The notes beneath the pieces were generated by a model, which saw nothing but the letters and a program-made list of their open reading frames with translations, was not told where the DNA came from and did not search any database. The position numbers and the translations under genes are program-made. Shown here piece after piece: positions 7,220-57,621 of a stretch of DNA of 64,000 nt. The stretch's first letter is position 1; each line of letters starts with the position of its first letter. Source of the DNA: Prevotella sp. (GTDB lineage: Bacteria > Bacteroidota > Bacteroidia > Bacteroidales > Bacteroidaceae). The stretch covers positions 1 to 64,000 of the forward strand of contig JAFVFY010000129.1 in the NCBI GenBank assembly GCA_017475265.1, written 5' to 3'.

Positions 7220-7266
7220 AATGGTAATAATAAAATAAGAGCGAGACAAAATAAATTATTAAATGT

Positions 7267-8424
7267 ATGAAACTATATGCAAGTGAAGACGAGGTCTATC
7301 AGATTCGTATAGGTCACGAAATTGTAGCGGCTTATTCTGAAATCTACAAGCCGTTGGTTATAGAAGACATTAAACAAAATCTGAAGCAGCACGCCGACAT
7401 CAGGCCCGACATAGCGGGGGGTAGAAGATTAGAGGATATCTTTGCCATTGCCACATACGACTACTGGCAATATGGCATTGGCACGGCTGAAGAGTTTTAC
7501 AATGAGCTTTTAGGATCGACTGACGAGAAGAAGCGTCAATATCTTACCTTCCGAGGACGTTTCGACTATATAGACCAGCTTAACAAAAAGGAGGATTTGC
7601 ATTTGCTCCGAAACAAGTGGCATTCCTACCTGTTGCTGAAAGATGCCTACAAGCGCGAAGTCCTGCTACTCGAAGGCGAACAAGATTTACCTGCCTTCGA
7701 GACCTTTTGCCATCGGCATCCCGCCTTTGTAGCCAAGCCCGTTGGACTCGGAGGGTCAGAGGGAGTGCATAAGGAGGAAGTTGGGGATGCTGACATTCAT
7801 ACGCTCCTCAATAAGTTGCTTGCTGAAGCAGAAGAAACTAACAGTCGTTTTAACACTGTTATCGACAAATGTGTGCTGGTGGAGGAAGTGATTGCTCAAG
7901 GCGAGGAAATGGCTGTGCTTCATCCTGCCAGTGTCAACAGTGTGCGAATGACTACTATCAATATGGGCGATGGAGATATACGTATGTGGTATCCTGTAGT
8001 TCGTATCGGAGTCGGCGGAAATTTCCTTAGCTCTGGGGCAGTCGGCTGCATTGTTGCCGGCATCAATATGTGTACAGGCATAACTGAAACACCGGGTAGT
8101 GACGAGTGGGGAAAGACCACAATTGTGCATCCAGACACTCACATTCCTATCAAGGGCATCAAGATACCCCGATGGCGGCAACTCTGCGATAAAGCCATCG
8201 AGATGGCGGAACGTCTGCCTACCCTGCGCTACATTGGTTGGGACTTTGTATTCGACAAAGACAAGGAGTGGATTGTAATGGAGGGCAACGAGGTCGGAGA
8301 AATACTCTCCCAGTTTGTCTATCATCGTGGGGAACGTGAAGAGTTTGAACAGCTCATCGGCTACAAACCCACAAAAGAGTATTGGTGGCAAGGAAAATAC
8401 CCGTCAAGATTTGAGAACGTTTAA
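7267..8424 (+). CDS. Sugar-transfer-associated ATP-grasp protein
   Basis: A 385-residue protein resembling the ATP-grasp group found in polysaccharide loci (Pfam ATPgrasp_ST). Visible ATP-grasp features are PAFVAKPVGLGGSEGVHK (phosphate-binding loop region), VLVEEVIAQGEEMAVLHP, SVNSVRMTTI and the metal-binding end DFVFDKDKEWIVMEGNEVGE. ATP-grasp enzymes join a carboxylate to an amine or similar group through an acyl phosphate, so this one may attach an amino acid or acid to a sugar; substrate unknown. It is followed after 11 bases by a second, unrelated ATP-grasp gene, then WbqC and DegT genes. The N-terminal 130 residues are helical and lack a known domain. Confidence 0.82.
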   Translation: MKLYASEDEVYQIRIGHEIVAAYSEIYKPLVIEDIKQNLKQHADIRPDIAGGRRLEDIFAIATYDYWQYGIGTAEEFYNELLGSTDEKKRQYLTFRGRFDYIDQLNKKEDLHLLRNKWHSYLLLKDAYKREVLLLEGEQDLPAFETFCHRHPAFVAKPVGLGGSEGVHKEEVGDADIHTLLNKLLAEAEETNSRFNTVIDKCVLVEEVIAQGEEMAVLHPASVNSVRMTTINMGDGDIRMWYPVVRIGVGGNFLSSGAVGCIVAGINMCTGITETPGSDEWGKTTIVHPDTHIPIKGIKIPRWRQLCDKAIEMAERLPTLRYIGWDFVFDKDKEWIVMEGNEVGEILSQFVYHRGEREEFEQLIGYKPTKEYWWQGKYPSRFENV

Positions 8425-32663: not shown

Positions 32664-32705
32664 CGGAAAAACCCTAAAACGGGGTAGGATTTTCCCTATT
32701 TTTAG

Positions 32706-32713
32706 TAATTTTG
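32706..32713 (+). promoter_or_regulatory. Promoter for prmA
   Basis: TAATTTTG (TAnnTTTG), 30 bases before the ATG at 32744 and divergent from the envelope-gene promoter. Confidence 0.6.
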
Positions 32714-32743
32714 CACCGTTATTTAACAAAAGGACATATTTAT

Positions 32744-33751
32744 ATGAAATACTTTGAGGTGAACTTCCGCATAGAGGCTCCAGAGGAGCTTATGCAGACA
32801 GGACGTGACGTGCTCTCGGCAATGGCTGGAGAAGCAGGATTTGAAACTTTCGAAGAGACCGAAGAGGGCATTACGGGCTATGTGCAGCAACAACTGCTCG
32901 AACGCCAGCAACTGGATGACCTCGTAGACAACTTTCCTTTACCCGATATTACTGTCAGTTATGACATCAGCGAGGCCGAATACCGTGACTGGAACGAGGA
33001 GTGGGAACAGCAGGGCTTCTACCCCATTGTCGTAGACCGGTACGTCATCCACGACGGGAAGCATTTGCCAACTCTCAACTCTCCGCTCGGCCGAAGGACG
33101 CTTGCGCAGCAAGAACTCTCAACTCTCCGCTCGGCCGAAGGACGCTTGCGCAGCAAGAACTCTCAACTCTCCGCTCGGCCGAAGGACGCTTGCGCAGCAA
33201 GAACTCTCAACTCTCAACGCTCAACTCAAATGATTGAGATTCACGCCCGTCAGGCCTTCGGCACCGGCACCCACGAGACCACCCAGATGATGGTTGCCAC
33301 GTTGGCAGCAATGGAGCTGGAAGGGAAACGAGTACTTGACTGCGGCACAGGCACTGGCATCCTGGCCATCGTCGCACTGAAAGGCGGTGCCCGTGAGGCC
33401 GTGGGCTACGACATTGACGAATGGAGTACTGCCAATGCCCGCCATAACGCCACGCTGAACGGCGTGGACGAGCGGATGAAGGTTCTTCTGGGTGATGTTT
33501 CTGTACTCAATGAGGTGGAGGGCTCTTTCGACGTGGTGCTGGCAAACATCAACCGCAACATCCTTCTTGCCGACATGCCCGCCATGGCATTAAAGCTGAC
33601 TCCCGGCGGTACGCTTGCCCTCAGTGGGTTCCTCACCGCCGATGTTTCCCTGTTGCTTGCCAAGGCTGGTGAACTGGGACTAACCCTTACGGCAAAGAAA
33701 AACGAGGCAGAATGGGTCTGCCTCGTATTTACTTCCAAAACCAAGATGTGA
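32744..33751 (+). CDS. prmA: Ribosomal protein L11 methyltransferase with an inserted repeat array
   Basis: About 335 residues from the ATG at 32744 (an in-frame TTG at 32711 lies in the promoter). The N-terminal L11-binding domain is residues 1-105 (YFEVNFRIEAPEELMQTGRD); the SAM domain begins at IEIHARQAFGTGTHETTQMM and contains VLDCGTGTGILAIVALKGGA and DVVLANINRNILLAD. Between the domains, about 53 codons (33070-33228) are foreign: three 44-bp units each read in a different frame, plus a CTCAA stretch. PrmA is normally about 280-290 residues. The enzyme trimethylates L11 and is usually dispensable. Its 3' end overlaps the convergent nrdG by 23 bases. Confidence 0.93.
   Translation: MKYFEVNFRIEAPEELMQTGRDVLSAMAGEAGFETFEETEEGITGYVQQQLLERQQLDDLVDNFPLPDITVSYDISEAEYRDWNEEWEQQGFYPIVVDRYVIHDGKHLPTLNSPLGRRTLAQQELSTLRSAEGRLRSKNSQLSARPKDACAARTLNSQRSTQMIEIHARQAFGTGTHETTQMMVATLAAMELEGKRVLDCGTGTGILAIVALKGGAREAVGYDIDEWSTANARHNATLNGVDERMKVLLGDVSVLNEVEGSFDVVLANINRNILLADMPAMALKLTPGGTLALSGFLTADVSLLLAKAGELGLTLTAKKNEAEWVCLVFTSKTKM
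33070..33201. repeat. 44-bp tandem repeat, exactly three copies, inside prmA
   Basis: Identical units at 33070-33113, 33114-33157 and 33158-33201. Since 44 is not a multiple of three, the copies are translated in three frames (NSPLGRRTLAQQ, STLRSAEGRLRSK, NSQLSARPKDACAA in order); none of the three forward frames has a stop. Three copies total 132 bases and restore the frame; two or four would not. Confidence 0.95.
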
Positions 33752-34193
33752 TGTCATCCATACTTCCATCAGGATTGACTCGGTAAAGACGCTGGTTTGT
33801 CGTTTTCTGGTTCAGCGGTCCGAGGTGGCGTATGTAGGGGCCTAGCTTGATGTAGTCAAAGTCGGTCTTGTTTACATTTGCCGGTATGTAAGCCCTGCCA
33901 CTGTACCAGGCTACGCGGAACTCCGGGTGCTCCTCATGGATGTATTGTGCCAGAAGGTTCACTCCTACCTGGTCACCATCGCCGCCCATGAAAGCCAGGC
34001 AGGTGATGTCTTGACCATACTGGGCAATGAAATCGTCGATAGCATCTGTGTCCAGGGGAAGCCCGATGTCTTCCCACAGATAATGGCTATGGCAACCTGG
34101 ACAGCGGCATGGACAGCCGCTGATGTTAATGGCCAGCGTCACCTCATCGGGTATCTCCTGGAACACGATTCCCGTGTTTACATACTTCAGCAT
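33729..34193 (-). CDS. nrdG: Anaerobic ribonucleotide reductase activating protein (radical SAM)
   Basis: A 154-residue radical SAM protein of the NrdG type. The cluster motif is CPCRCPGC (C-x3-C-x2-C) in NISGCPCRCPGCHSHYLW, followed by LAFMGGDGDQVGVNLLAQYI (SAM-binding GGE-like region). NrdG puts the glycyl radical on anaerobic ribonucleotide reductase NrdD. No nrdD is in the window; here nrdG instead follows uxaB with a one-base overlap (TAATG), so the two would be cotranscribed. An activase for another glycyl-radical enzyme is possible but less likely given the C-terminal sequence. Confidence 0.85.
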   Translation of the reverse strand: MLKYVNTGIVFQEIPDEVTLAINISGCPCRCPGCHSHYLWEDIGLPLDTDAIDDFIAQYGQDITCLAFMGGDGDQVGVNLLAQYIHEEHPEFRVAWYSGRAYIPANVNKTDFDYIKLGPYIRHLGPLNQKTTNQRLYRVNPDGSMDDITSWFWK

Positions 34194-49845: not shown

Positions 49846-49972
49846 GGGGAGTGAAGGGGGAGTGAAGGGGGAGTGAAGGGGGAGTGAAGGGGGAGTGAAA
49901 GGGACGATACCTTCTTTCTCAGTTTATGGGGACAGCAAAAGTATTGTCCCTTTCACTCCCCTTTCACTCCCC
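49846..49972. repeat. Inverted-array element A (GGGAGTGAA arms, 40-nt core)
   Basis: The left arm has five GGGGGAGTGAA units and ends GAAAGGGAC (49897-49905). A 40-nt core (49906-49945) contains CTTCTTTCTCAGTTTATGG. The right arm starts GTCCCTTTC (49946-49954) and continues ACTCCCCTTTCACTCCCC. The arms are complementary, so RNA would form a long hairpin. The core differs at only two positions from that of the element at 52078. It fills the space between the HD and LacI genes. Confidence 0.93.
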
Positions 49973-49980
49973 TTAAAATA

Positions 49981-51059: not shown

Positions 51060-51240
51060 GGGGAGTGAAAGGGGAGTGATGGGGGGAGTGAAGGGGGAGT
51101 GAAAGGGACGAATGTCTTGCTGGTAGTATAGAATACCATAACACTCACTTCTATTAACTTAATGTTGTTGTCAGTCTAATAATATAAGTATCGTCCCTTT
51201 CACTCCTCTTTAACTCCCCCTTCACTCCCCTTTCACTCCC
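51060..51240. repeat. Inverted-array element B (same arms, different 79-nt core)
   Basis: Left arm of four GGGAGTGA units ending GAAAGGGACGA (51101-51111), core 51112-51190 unlike that of elements A and C, right arm starting TCGTCCCTTTC (51191-51201) and ending CTTTCACTCCC. It occupies the whole spacer between the panB stop (51247) and the LacI-gene start (51045), so any transcript running from panB into the regulator gene would fold here. Confidence 0.92.
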
Positions 51241-52068: not shown

Positions 52069-52077
52069 TTTTGTTTA

Positions 52078-52215
52078 GGGGAGTGAAAGGGAAGTGAAGG
52101 GGGAGTGAAAGGGGAGTGAAAGGGACGTTACCTTCTTTCTCAGTTTATGGGAACAGCAAAAGTATTGTCCCTTTCACTCCCCCTTCACTTCCCCCCTTCA
52201 CTTCCCTTTCACTCC
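52078..52215. repeat. Inverted-array element C (same core as A)
   Basis: Left arm of about four units ending GAAAGGGAC (52118-52126); 40-nt core 52127-52166 identical to element A except two bases; right arm from GTCCCTTTC (52167-52175) with ACTCCCCC and ACTTCCCC units. The right arm covers the 3' end of the HAD phosphatase gene, and its bases encode the last about 20 residues. Confidence 0.93.
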
Positions 52216-55512: not shown

Positions 55513-57621
55513 TTAGCGCAATGGTTTTATCCCGTTCCGTTTGAGCAGCGCCTTGATGGTCGGCTCTCCGCCACGGAAGCGTTTGTAGAGCACCATCGGG
55601 TCTTCGGTGCCTCCCTTGGAAAGGATGTTCTCACGGAAGCTCTCGGCAGTCTCACGGTCGAAGATACCATGGCGTTTGAACACGGCAAAAGCATCAGCGT
55701 CGAGCACCTCGGCCCACTTATAACTATAGTAACCAGCGGCGTAACCTCCTGCCATAATGTGCGAGAACTGCACGGTCATGCAGGTGTCGGTACGTTGCTT
55801 GCCGATGATGGCTTTCTTCCAGGCCTCTTTCTCGAAGGTCATCACATTCTCCGTAAACTCTTCTTTCTGGGTGTAGTAGGCCATATCGAGCAGTCCGAGG
55901 CTTACCTGACGCAGACAAGCCGTGGCCGCCATGAAGTTACGGCTCTTCACCACACGGTCTATCAGTTCGTCGGGTAGCGGCTCGCCCGTCTCATAGTGGA
56001 AGGCAAAGGTACGCAGGAACTCCTTCTCCACAGCGTAGTTCTCCATGAACTGTGAGGGCAGCTCCACGAAGTCCCAGAGCACACTCGTACCCGAAAGGCT
56101 CTCGAAGCGTGTATTGGCAAACATGCCGTGAAGCGAATGACCAAACTCATGGAGGAAGGTCTCCACCTCGCCAAGAGTCAGCAAGGCAGGCTTTCCCATT
56201 GACCATTGACCATTGACCATTGAACCTTCAGTAGGCTTCGTGAGGTTCATCACCACGCTGACATGCGGACGTATGTTCTCGCCCTTCTTGTCGATGCACT
56301 GGCTCTGAAACTGCGTCATCCATGCCCCACCCTGCTTGCCCTTGCGCGGATGGAAGTCGGCATAGAACACAGCAAGATACGAGCCGTCCTTGTCGAACAC
56401 CTCGTAGGCCTTCACGTCGGGGTGATAGACGGGAATGTCCTTGTTCTCCTTGAAAGTGATGCCGTAGAGGCGGTTGGCCAGGCCGAAGACGCCGTCGATG
56501 ACTTTCTCCAACTGTAGATAAGGACGCAGCATCTCAGCATCGATGTTGTATTTCTTCAGCTTCAGTTTGTGGGAGTAGAAGGCAATGTCCCAAGGCTCGA
56601 GCTTGATTTGAGATTTGAGATTTGAGGGTTGAGATTTCTTATAGAAACGCTTGACCTCTTCTTTCTCCTTCAAAGCTGTAGGCTTATACGCTTCTATGAG
56701 GTCGTTGAACAGACGGTAGACGCTGCGGACGTTACGTGCCATACGGTTTTTGAGCACGTAGTCGGCGTATGTCTTGAAGCCGAGCAGCTGGGCAATCTCG
56801 CGGCGCAGGTTGACAAGCTTCTTACAGATTTCCAGGTTGTTAGCATCGTTGTCGTGTATACAGAGCGTGTTGTGAGCCATGTACATCTGACGGCGTAGCT
56901 CCCGCTGAGTGCTGTAGGTCATAAATGGCGAATAGGACGGAGAGTCGAGGGTGAAAGTCCATCCGTCGCCCTTTGCTTCCTCTGCGGCAGCGTCGATAGC
57001 CGTCTGGGGCAGTCCTTCGAGTTGTGCGGGGTCGGTAATGTGGAGCTTGAAGGCCTTCTGCTCCTTGAGCACGTTCTGCGAGAACATCAGGGAGAGCATC
57101 GAAGCCTCCTCGGTGAGCTTTCGCAGCTTCTCCTTGCCCTCGTCATCTAGCAAGGCACCGCTACGCACAAAACCGTCGTAACAGTTATCGAGCAAACGTT
57201 TTTCTTCGGGAGTAAGACGGCGGTGATGGAGGTGCACATATTTCACACGCTCGAATAGCTTAGGGTTCAGGCGCACATCATTGGCATGTTGTGTCAGGAT
57301 AGGTTGCAGCTTCTGGGCAAGGGCATCCATGTCATCATTCGTCTCTGCAGAGAGCAAGTTGAAGAACACGCTGCTGACACGCTCCAGCAGGTCGTAGTAA
57401 CCCTCGGAATCGTCCTCCTGGTCTACGATGGTGTTGTCGAAGTTGGGCTTTGCGGGGTTATTGACGATACGGTCTATCTGCTCGTTGTCCCGGCGTATAC
57501 CCTCCATGAAGGCTTCCTCGAAGTCCTCCAGGCGTATGCGGTCGAATGGCGGGGTGTCGTGAGGCGTGTTGTAGGGTTCAAAAAACGGGTTCTTCCTCAC
57601 ATTGACATTATCTGTACTCAT
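55513..57621 (-). CDS. M3 family oligopeptidase (Dcp/OpdA-like)
   Basis: A 702-residue zinc metallopeptidase that cuts short peptides in the cytoplasm. The zinc site is EVETFLHEFGHSLHGMFANT (HExxH with the third ligand Glu in FESLSGTSVLWDFVELPSQ). Other signatures are YADYVLKNRMARNVRSVYRL and QFSHIMAGGYAAGYYSYKWA. Two simple-repeat insertions are in frame: SQPSNLKSQIK (56604-56638) and EGSMVNGQWSMG (about 56190-56227), the second a few residues before the zinc site. No signal peptide. Promoter at 57675. Confidence 0.94.
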   Translation of the reverse strand: MSTDNVNVRKNPFFEPYNTPHDTPPFDRIRLEDFEEAFMEGIRRDNEQIDRIVNNPAKPNFDNTIVDQEDDSEGYYDLLERVSSVFFNLLSAETNDDMDALAQKLQPILTQHANDVRLNPKLFERVKYVHLHHRRLTPEEKRLLDNCYDGFVRSGALLDDEGKEKLRKLTEEASMLSLMFSQNVLKEQKAFKLHITDPAQLEGLPQTAIDAAAEEAKGDGWTFTLDSPSYSPFMTYSTQRELRRQMYMAHNTLCIHDNDANNLEICKKLVNLRREIAQLLGFKTYADYVLKNRMARNVRSVYRLFNDLIEAYKPTALKEKEEVKRFYKKSQPSNLKSQIKLEPWDIAFYSHKLKLKKYNIDAEMLRPYLQLEKVIDGVFGLANRLYGITFKENKDIPVYHPDVKAYEVFDKDGSYLAVFYADFHPRKGKQGGAWMTQFQSQCIDKKGENIRPHVSVVMNLTKPTEGSMVNGQWSMGKPALLTLGEVETFLHEFGHSLHGMFANTRFESLSGTSVLWDFVELPSQFMENYAVEKEFLRTFAFHYETGEPLPDELIDRVVKSRNFMAATACLRQVSLGLLDMAYYTQKEEFTENVMTFEKEAWKKAIIGKQRTDTCMTVQFSHIMAGGYAAGYYSYKWAEVLDADAFAVFKRHGIFDRETAESFRENILSKGGTEDPMVLYKRFRGGEPTIKALLKRNGIKPLR
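56604..56638. repeat. In-frame GATTTGAGA micro-repeat inside the M3 peptidase gene
   Basis: GATTTGAGATTTGAGATTTG and variants, encoding SQPSNLKSQIK on the coding strand. A second simple repeat of TTGACCA units lies at about 56199-56220 in the same gene. Confidence 0.75.

Follow-up and report, generated by a model that had tools for sequence, protein, structure and literature searches.

A dispersed hairpin element within heptanucleotide arrays in the PrmA linker of a Prevotella genome

The prmA gene of Prevotella sp. (assembly GCA_017475265.1, contig JAFVFY010000129.1), which encodes the ribosomal protein L11 methyltransferase, carries a tandem repeat of 44 bp between the L11-binding and SAM domains of its product. 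An original prediction, made from the letters of a stretch of 64,000 nucleotides (positions 1 to 64,000 of the contig, hereafter the window), offered two readings of this repeat, either an on/off switch that would make ribosome methylation phase-variable or simply a site that permits insertions. The question is what the repeated unit is, how it came to lie inside a housekeeping gene, and which of the two readings it fits.

Architecture of the repeat in prmA

The prmA frame runs on the forward strand from an ATG at 32744 to a stop codon ending at 33751 and is uninterrupted across the insert. Its C-terminal part matches PF06325 in Pfam, and both domains were recovered by alignment. Exact 44-bp units had been predicted between the two domains, and Tandem Repeats Finder indeed places a 44-bp repeat at 33070–33215, with 3.3 copies and 100% matches. 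The whole insert spans 160 bp (33070–33229, forward strand) and consists of 10 heptamers, eight AACTCTC followed by AACGCTC and AACTCAA, broken by three copies of a 30-bp core, CGCTCGGCCGAAGGACGCTTGCGCAGCAAG, each made of a 5' CGCT, a hairpin A, and a hairpin B (33084–33113, 33128–33157, and 33172–33201, all on the forward strand). The 3' heptamer run AACTCTC AACTCTC AACGCTC AACTCAA (33202–33229, forward strand) abuts the conserved SAM-domain part of PrmA, with MIEI starting at 33230.

Because 44 equals 2 modulo 3, the three copies are translated as PLGRRTLAQQE, RSAEGRLRSK, and ARPKDACAAR. All sense frames are open and the prmA ORF is intact, in agreement with the prediction that each unit is read without a stop in a new frame and that the frame is then regained; gain or loss of one unit would shift it, as also predicted, and so would that of one heptamer (1 modulo 3). 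When four units were placed head-to-tail, the three sense frames were open and each antisense frame contained a stop, whereas the core alone was open in all six. The window contains three matches to a 23-base stretch of the core, versus no match in 100 shuffles, which places the array beyond chance. A search of Rfam with positions 32700–33760 returned a chance match only, and the prmA DNA had no match in plasmids.

A dispersed family and its copies inside genes

The 44-bp unit is not private to prmA, as its core belongs to a family dispersed throughout the genome. In the genome of the window (G000; the other G numbers denote the compared genomes), the 29-bp core obtained by omitting the first base had 20 matches with up to three mismatches (reversed control, 0), and a looser pattern, CTCGGCC-N2-6-GGACGCTTGC, had 64 (control 0) and was present in 60 of 200 genomes of the genus, including G000 itself. 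The general form GCTCGG-N4-12-CGCTT-N5-17-AAGAA, which is loose enough for chance matches, occurred at least once in 94 of 150 same-genus genomes including G000 (reversed control 26/150) and at least three times in 60 of 150 (control 2/150), with 78 matches in G000 itself (control 1). It was found in 21 of 198 genomes of an order-wide sample versus 18 of 198 for the control, and so does not exceed chance in the rest of the order, with the exception of G342, a genome of another family with seven copies of clear hairpin form. Among the matches listed for named genomes, the narrower pattern gave at least 80 stretches, 54 of them titled Prevotella, Prevotellaceae, Bacteroidales, or Bacteroidaceae, and many of these Prevotella/Bacteroidales-type stretches are rumen bins; about 25 of the listed stretches come from unrelated genomes and are probably chance matches. 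The record of Prevotella sp. ne3005 holds a copy within a coding frame, adjoining the heptamer AATCTTC. Among the papers listed in literature searches, none was recognised as describing the element.

The element, with the consensus CGCTCGG..CGCTT..AAG, has a 5' tail of CGCT and two small hairpins, A and B. Among 85 distinct loops, 54 have complementary hairpin B ends, whereas 1000 shuffles of the partners gave 29.5 on average and never more than 41. Four cores folded as DNA gave −5.4 to −8 kcal/mol; two of them were more stable than most shuffles (z about −2.2), and the other two, including the prmA core (z 0.04), were not. The borders, counted on the 62 of 64 G000 copies with a recognisable GCAAG end, have CG at the left in 61 and AA next at the right in 56, and core lengths in G000 range from 30 to 42 bp. 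The GT[AG]G foot tetranucleotide of canonical REPs is absent from the consensus, and variants with CCGCTT have neither GACG nor its CGTC counterpart as a tag.

Heptamers flank 36 of the 64 G000 copies, and 32 of these 36 lie in open frames of at least 200 aa, 30 in sense and two scored as antisense. Read by eye, one of the two has a sense frame after a putative signal peptide and the other is located before the likely start of the gene. The 35 sense copies in open frames of at least 200 aa are distributed over the codon phases as 15, 14, and 6; all three frames are used, and the hosts include the housekeeping genes proA, mutS2, gcvT, and gcvPA. Twenty-seven hosts were scanned for domains. In 11, one uninterrupted frame carries Pfam domains that either span the insert or flank it (MFS_1; GlcNAc_2-epim; UPF0004/Radical_SAM; ResB/Cytochrom_C_asm; GCV_T; GDC-P; GH9; Glycos_transf_1; M64; Glycos_transf_2; MutS2), and an NCBIfam match covers residues 20–449 of the 450 of ProA across its insert; in the remaining scanned hosts, cobT aside, domain matches did not settle frame continuity. 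In the assembly, cobT (L266; G000:C29, 10926–12067) is divided into two frames on either side of a core-plus-heptamer insert, with positions 1–210 of the profile PF02277 before the insert and 221–328 after it. A frameshift considered for a sensor-kinase host (L293) was rejected, as the frame ends in a tail before the next gene and no second frame was seen. At another locus (L290; G000:C103, 52532–61169), the neighbouring genes gcvT, gcvPA, and gcvPB hold one copy each, that of gcvPB at the very start of the open frame and perhaps ahead of the real start.

When G000 copies were sorted by their flanks alone, all 36 heptamer-flanked ones had lengths divisible by three (30, 33, or 42 bp), as had 15 of the 26 others. 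These 3n lengths represent a few variants copied many times, so that the copies are not independent. A second test took distinct copies in which hairpin B is paired, from all fetched loci of any species, that is, 64 from G000 (two edge copies dropped) and 143 from other genomes (20 dropped), a copy being taken as inside a long frame if the frame had 200 aa and extended 40 aa beyond the copy in both directions. Inside were 28 copies of G000 (26 sense, 2 antisense) and 46 of other genomes (36 sense, 10 antisense). Every one of these 74 copies has a 3n length, a result that is partly circular because a lone non-3n copy would close the frame and the filter thus partly forces it. Outside long frames, the 3n proportions were 22/34 in G000 and 53/77 in other genomes.

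Of the 86 short arrays found in 264 kb of sequence, made up of the window and ten samples of 20 kb, 57 had period 7, versus none of the two arrays in one codon-shuffled control. A genus-wide heptamer count (63/150) was rejected as evidence because the reversed control was also high in array-rich genomes (166 vs. 64 in G000). Elsewhere in the window, a 702-aa ORF that looks oligopeptidase-like by eye (55513–57621) has, within its open frame, a pair of period-7 arrays built from other units (56196–56223 and 56605–56637). Arrays of an 11-mer, AGGGGAGTGAA, mostly intergenic, were also seen at 49846–49974, 51060–51240, and 52077–52215, as inverted pairs around spacers of 45–90 bp, two of the three spacers being nearly identical.

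Insertion sites and a candidate transposase

At the DNA level, an occupied site was compared with its empty counterpart in one case, a DUF4160 gene (PF13711) of G000 in which a 32-bp copy sits exactly between GACCAC and AACCC. The homologues in G171, G145, G208, and G050 have an empty site with uninterrupted sequence. The copy was inserted 5' of AA with no target duplication, and its length is not a multiple of three, so that the host frame is shifted. It is also free of heptamers, which indicates that the core is able to move without them. IS200/IS605-like (HUH) elements insert with no larger target-site duplication, according to the part of the source available (PMC2817692), and the same was found at this one site. 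Direct repeats do flank copies (heptamers, AATGGTC, AATTTAGG, or 9-mers), but target-site duplication as a general feature was rejected because the DUF4160 site has none. Two non-heptamer settings recur, CAGACCC..core..CTTAGGGG (L281, L286, L287, L296, L298) and AATTTAGG..core..AATTTAGG (L263, L272, L282, L285, L301), or near variants of these, and in both the core appears as if nested within larger repeats.

Y1_Tnp was found in 10 of 12 element-bearing versus 6 of 12 element-free genomes, some of them incomplete, and a clear link between its presence and element number in these 24 genomes was rejected on these figures; it was not found in G155 (125 matches) or G110 (20 matches). Two Y1 open frames stand in tandem in G342, each preceded by a copy in the same orientation, at distances of 107 and 44 bp. 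Each other aside, the two Y1 proteins are closest, among those compared, to proteins of G050 and G000, with 43–50% identity. The signature of the TnpA(REP) subclass 2.6, as given in the part of the source available, is NH[LIV]H, WQ, YIH[QN]NP, and SS (PMC6006769). A protein of G000 (contig C20) fits it with NHLH, WQ, YIHQNP, and SS, and the G342 proteins have the variants SHLH and WT. Two of the 12 genomes that bear the element and were searched had the signature (G050 and G342); among all fetched loci it was found in G000, G050, and G342 only, adjacent to the element in G342 only; the nearest copy to the G000 gene is 1.1 kb away, and none is near the G050 gene (contig C25). These protein motifs and positions are suggestive of a subclass 2.6 enzyme as the mobiliser of the element, although the link is weak and they are not proof. 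A second Y1 transposase gene of G000 (L256/L268; G000:C37, about 7233–7830) was rejected as a partner, being of another type and flanked on both sides by its own, different hairpins.

Origin of the PrmA insert and comparison with known systems

PrmA was detected in 184 of 200 same-genus genomes, and linkers were examined in 44 genomes, G000 included, drawn from the best prmA/PrmA matches. A period-7 array was present in seven of the 44, G000 included (mean 0.02 and maximum 1 in 200 base shuffles), and an array of another period in one. The core was present in two, three times in G000 and once in G022, where it is diverged, inverted, and placed amid AACGAGG heptamers; it is absent from the linkers of 42 of the 43 relatives examined. 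The prmA genes of G018 and G014 have heptamer arrays without cores. Arrays in 7/44 linkers and cores in 2/44 indicate that the linker is a recurrent landing site, in which coreless arrays can also occur. The permissive site of the original prediction is favoured by these arrays and by the G022 copy. The on/off switch gained no positive evidence, the unit being dispersed over unrelated genes and absent from prmA in nearly all relatives examined, and the core length being frame-neutral. Relatives with non-repeat sequence of the same length at this place had been proposed as an argument against a switch, and the linkers examined agree with it in part, as most of them lack the core and are much shorter than that of G000.

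We consider it probable that a REP-like element entered a permissive PrmA linker, that its 3n copies are tolerated there, and that a HUH transposase is the mobiliser. The 44-bp unit would then be a 30-bp REP-like core lodged in a heptanucleotide microsatellite of the interdomain linker, and the core would spread through the genome, perhaps to this day, as a unit separate from the heptamers. Its precise entry on the 5' side of AA, leaving no target duplication, would be that expected of single-strand (HUH/Y1) transposition, with a subclass 2.6 TnpA(REP) as the likely enzyme. In-phase heptamer arrays would serve as landing pads, and 3n copies would persist inside genes since the reading frame survives them, with an accidental peptide that varies by frame. 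ARPKDACAAR, PLGRRTLAQQE, and RSAEGRLRSK are probably DNA-level passengers, which is a warning for annotation. The triple copy may have arisen by repeated insertion into successive heptamers, in which no step would disturb the frame since the cores are of 3n length, or the unit may have been duplicated in tandem, which would break the frame unless heptamer number compensated; the equal 14-bp spacing of the cores favours duplication. Most probably, PrmA itself tolerates a linker lengthened by roughly 45 residues.

The dispersal of the core could also be explained without a transposase, if cores and heptamers were copied from one heptamer array to another through gene conversion or template switching. 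The 36 of 62 measured G000 copies that lie between heptamers, the existence of coreless arrays, including those in prmA of G018 and G014, and the failure to find Y1 genes in the copy-rich G155 and G110 agree with such a process. We nevertheless regard it as rather unlikely, as cores also occur in non-heptamer contexts and amid other heptamers, the clean DUF4160 insertion is heptamer-free, and the element lies upstream of Y1 genes in G342. Phase variation, in which slippage or recombination among 44-bp units or heptamers would toggle PrmA under selection, is physically possible because a single change in the number of either shifts the frame, and cobT of the same genome, divided between two frames at its insert, speaks for it. 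In the comparison, which covered genomes of other species, no second copy number of the array was seen. Phase variation is however improbable for PrmA, given the scatter of inserts over unrelated housekeeping genes, the coreless prmA of 42 of the 43 relatives, and the 3n length of heptamer-flanked cores, which suits toleration better than switching. We give very little credence to a flexible linker selected for its function within PrmA: the tract does lie in frame and exactly between the two domains, but other proteins read this DNA in different frames, and most relatives do with much shorter linkers. An error of assembly, in the copy number or in the whole repeat, might be suspected in a draft genome of 135 contigs, repeats being prone to mis-assembly; the frame that remains intact through three copies, the similar in-frame element of the ne3005 record, which is not marked as a metagenome bin, and the presence of the family in many other genomes make it hardly credible.

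The REP-like element in a permissive linker can be extended, much more tentatively, to a protein-invading system proper to the whole genus in Prevotella-like gut bacteria. Heptamer arrays would grow within the interdomain linkers of housekeeping genes as in-phase landing pads for a 3n hairpin mobilised by a HUH enzyme, so that the linkers of many proteins would be repeatedly lengthened and some genes put reversibly out of frame. If this holds in a gut commensal genus, it would provide a tractable system for how proteins gain linker sequence.

Heptanucleotide repeats are familiar from cyanobacteria as STRR, period-7 arrays scattered in the genome. Heptameric SSRs are likewise described as period-7 arrays scattered in the genome, in the part of the source available (PMC4692102). 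The G000 arrays differ from both in being also intragenic and in carrying inserted hairpin cores. Rickettsia is the best-known case of mobile repeats that settle in reading frames, and its palindromic elements (RPE), in the excerpt available, measure about 150 bp and encode a conserved peptide (PMC10969869). The present element shares with them its palindromic structure and its dispersal, in frame, in many unrelated genes, but it has a core of mostly 30–42 bp that is read in three frames and does not qualify as an RPE. Intragenic REPs, of which the portion available describes the GTAG and CGTC families and the cases of Opitutus terrae and of RPE-4/RPE-6 of Rickettsia conorii, with clusters encoding 43–82 residues (PMC3733652), are also short hairpin repeats found in many unrelated genes and sometimes clustered; unlike them, our element has no GTAG and no constant CGTC tag, and many of its copies lie in heptamer arrays, those with 3n cores. 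The element also resembles the REP-like structures of subclass 2.6 of TnpA(REP)/RAYT (RAYT group 5), a subclass that occurs mostly in Bacteroidetes and whose structures are atypical, as far as the available part of the source describes it (PMC6006769). Common to both are the lack of a GT[AG]G foot, a weak and atypical structure, copies elsewhere in the genome, and the transposase signature fitted by the G000 protein, all of these being likenesses of description. The element departs from that description in spreading inside genes at heptamers and in adjoining a transposase gene in G342 only. A frame-neutral hairpin of roughly 30–42 bp tied to heptamer arrays would be a candidate cognate element for subclass 2.6.
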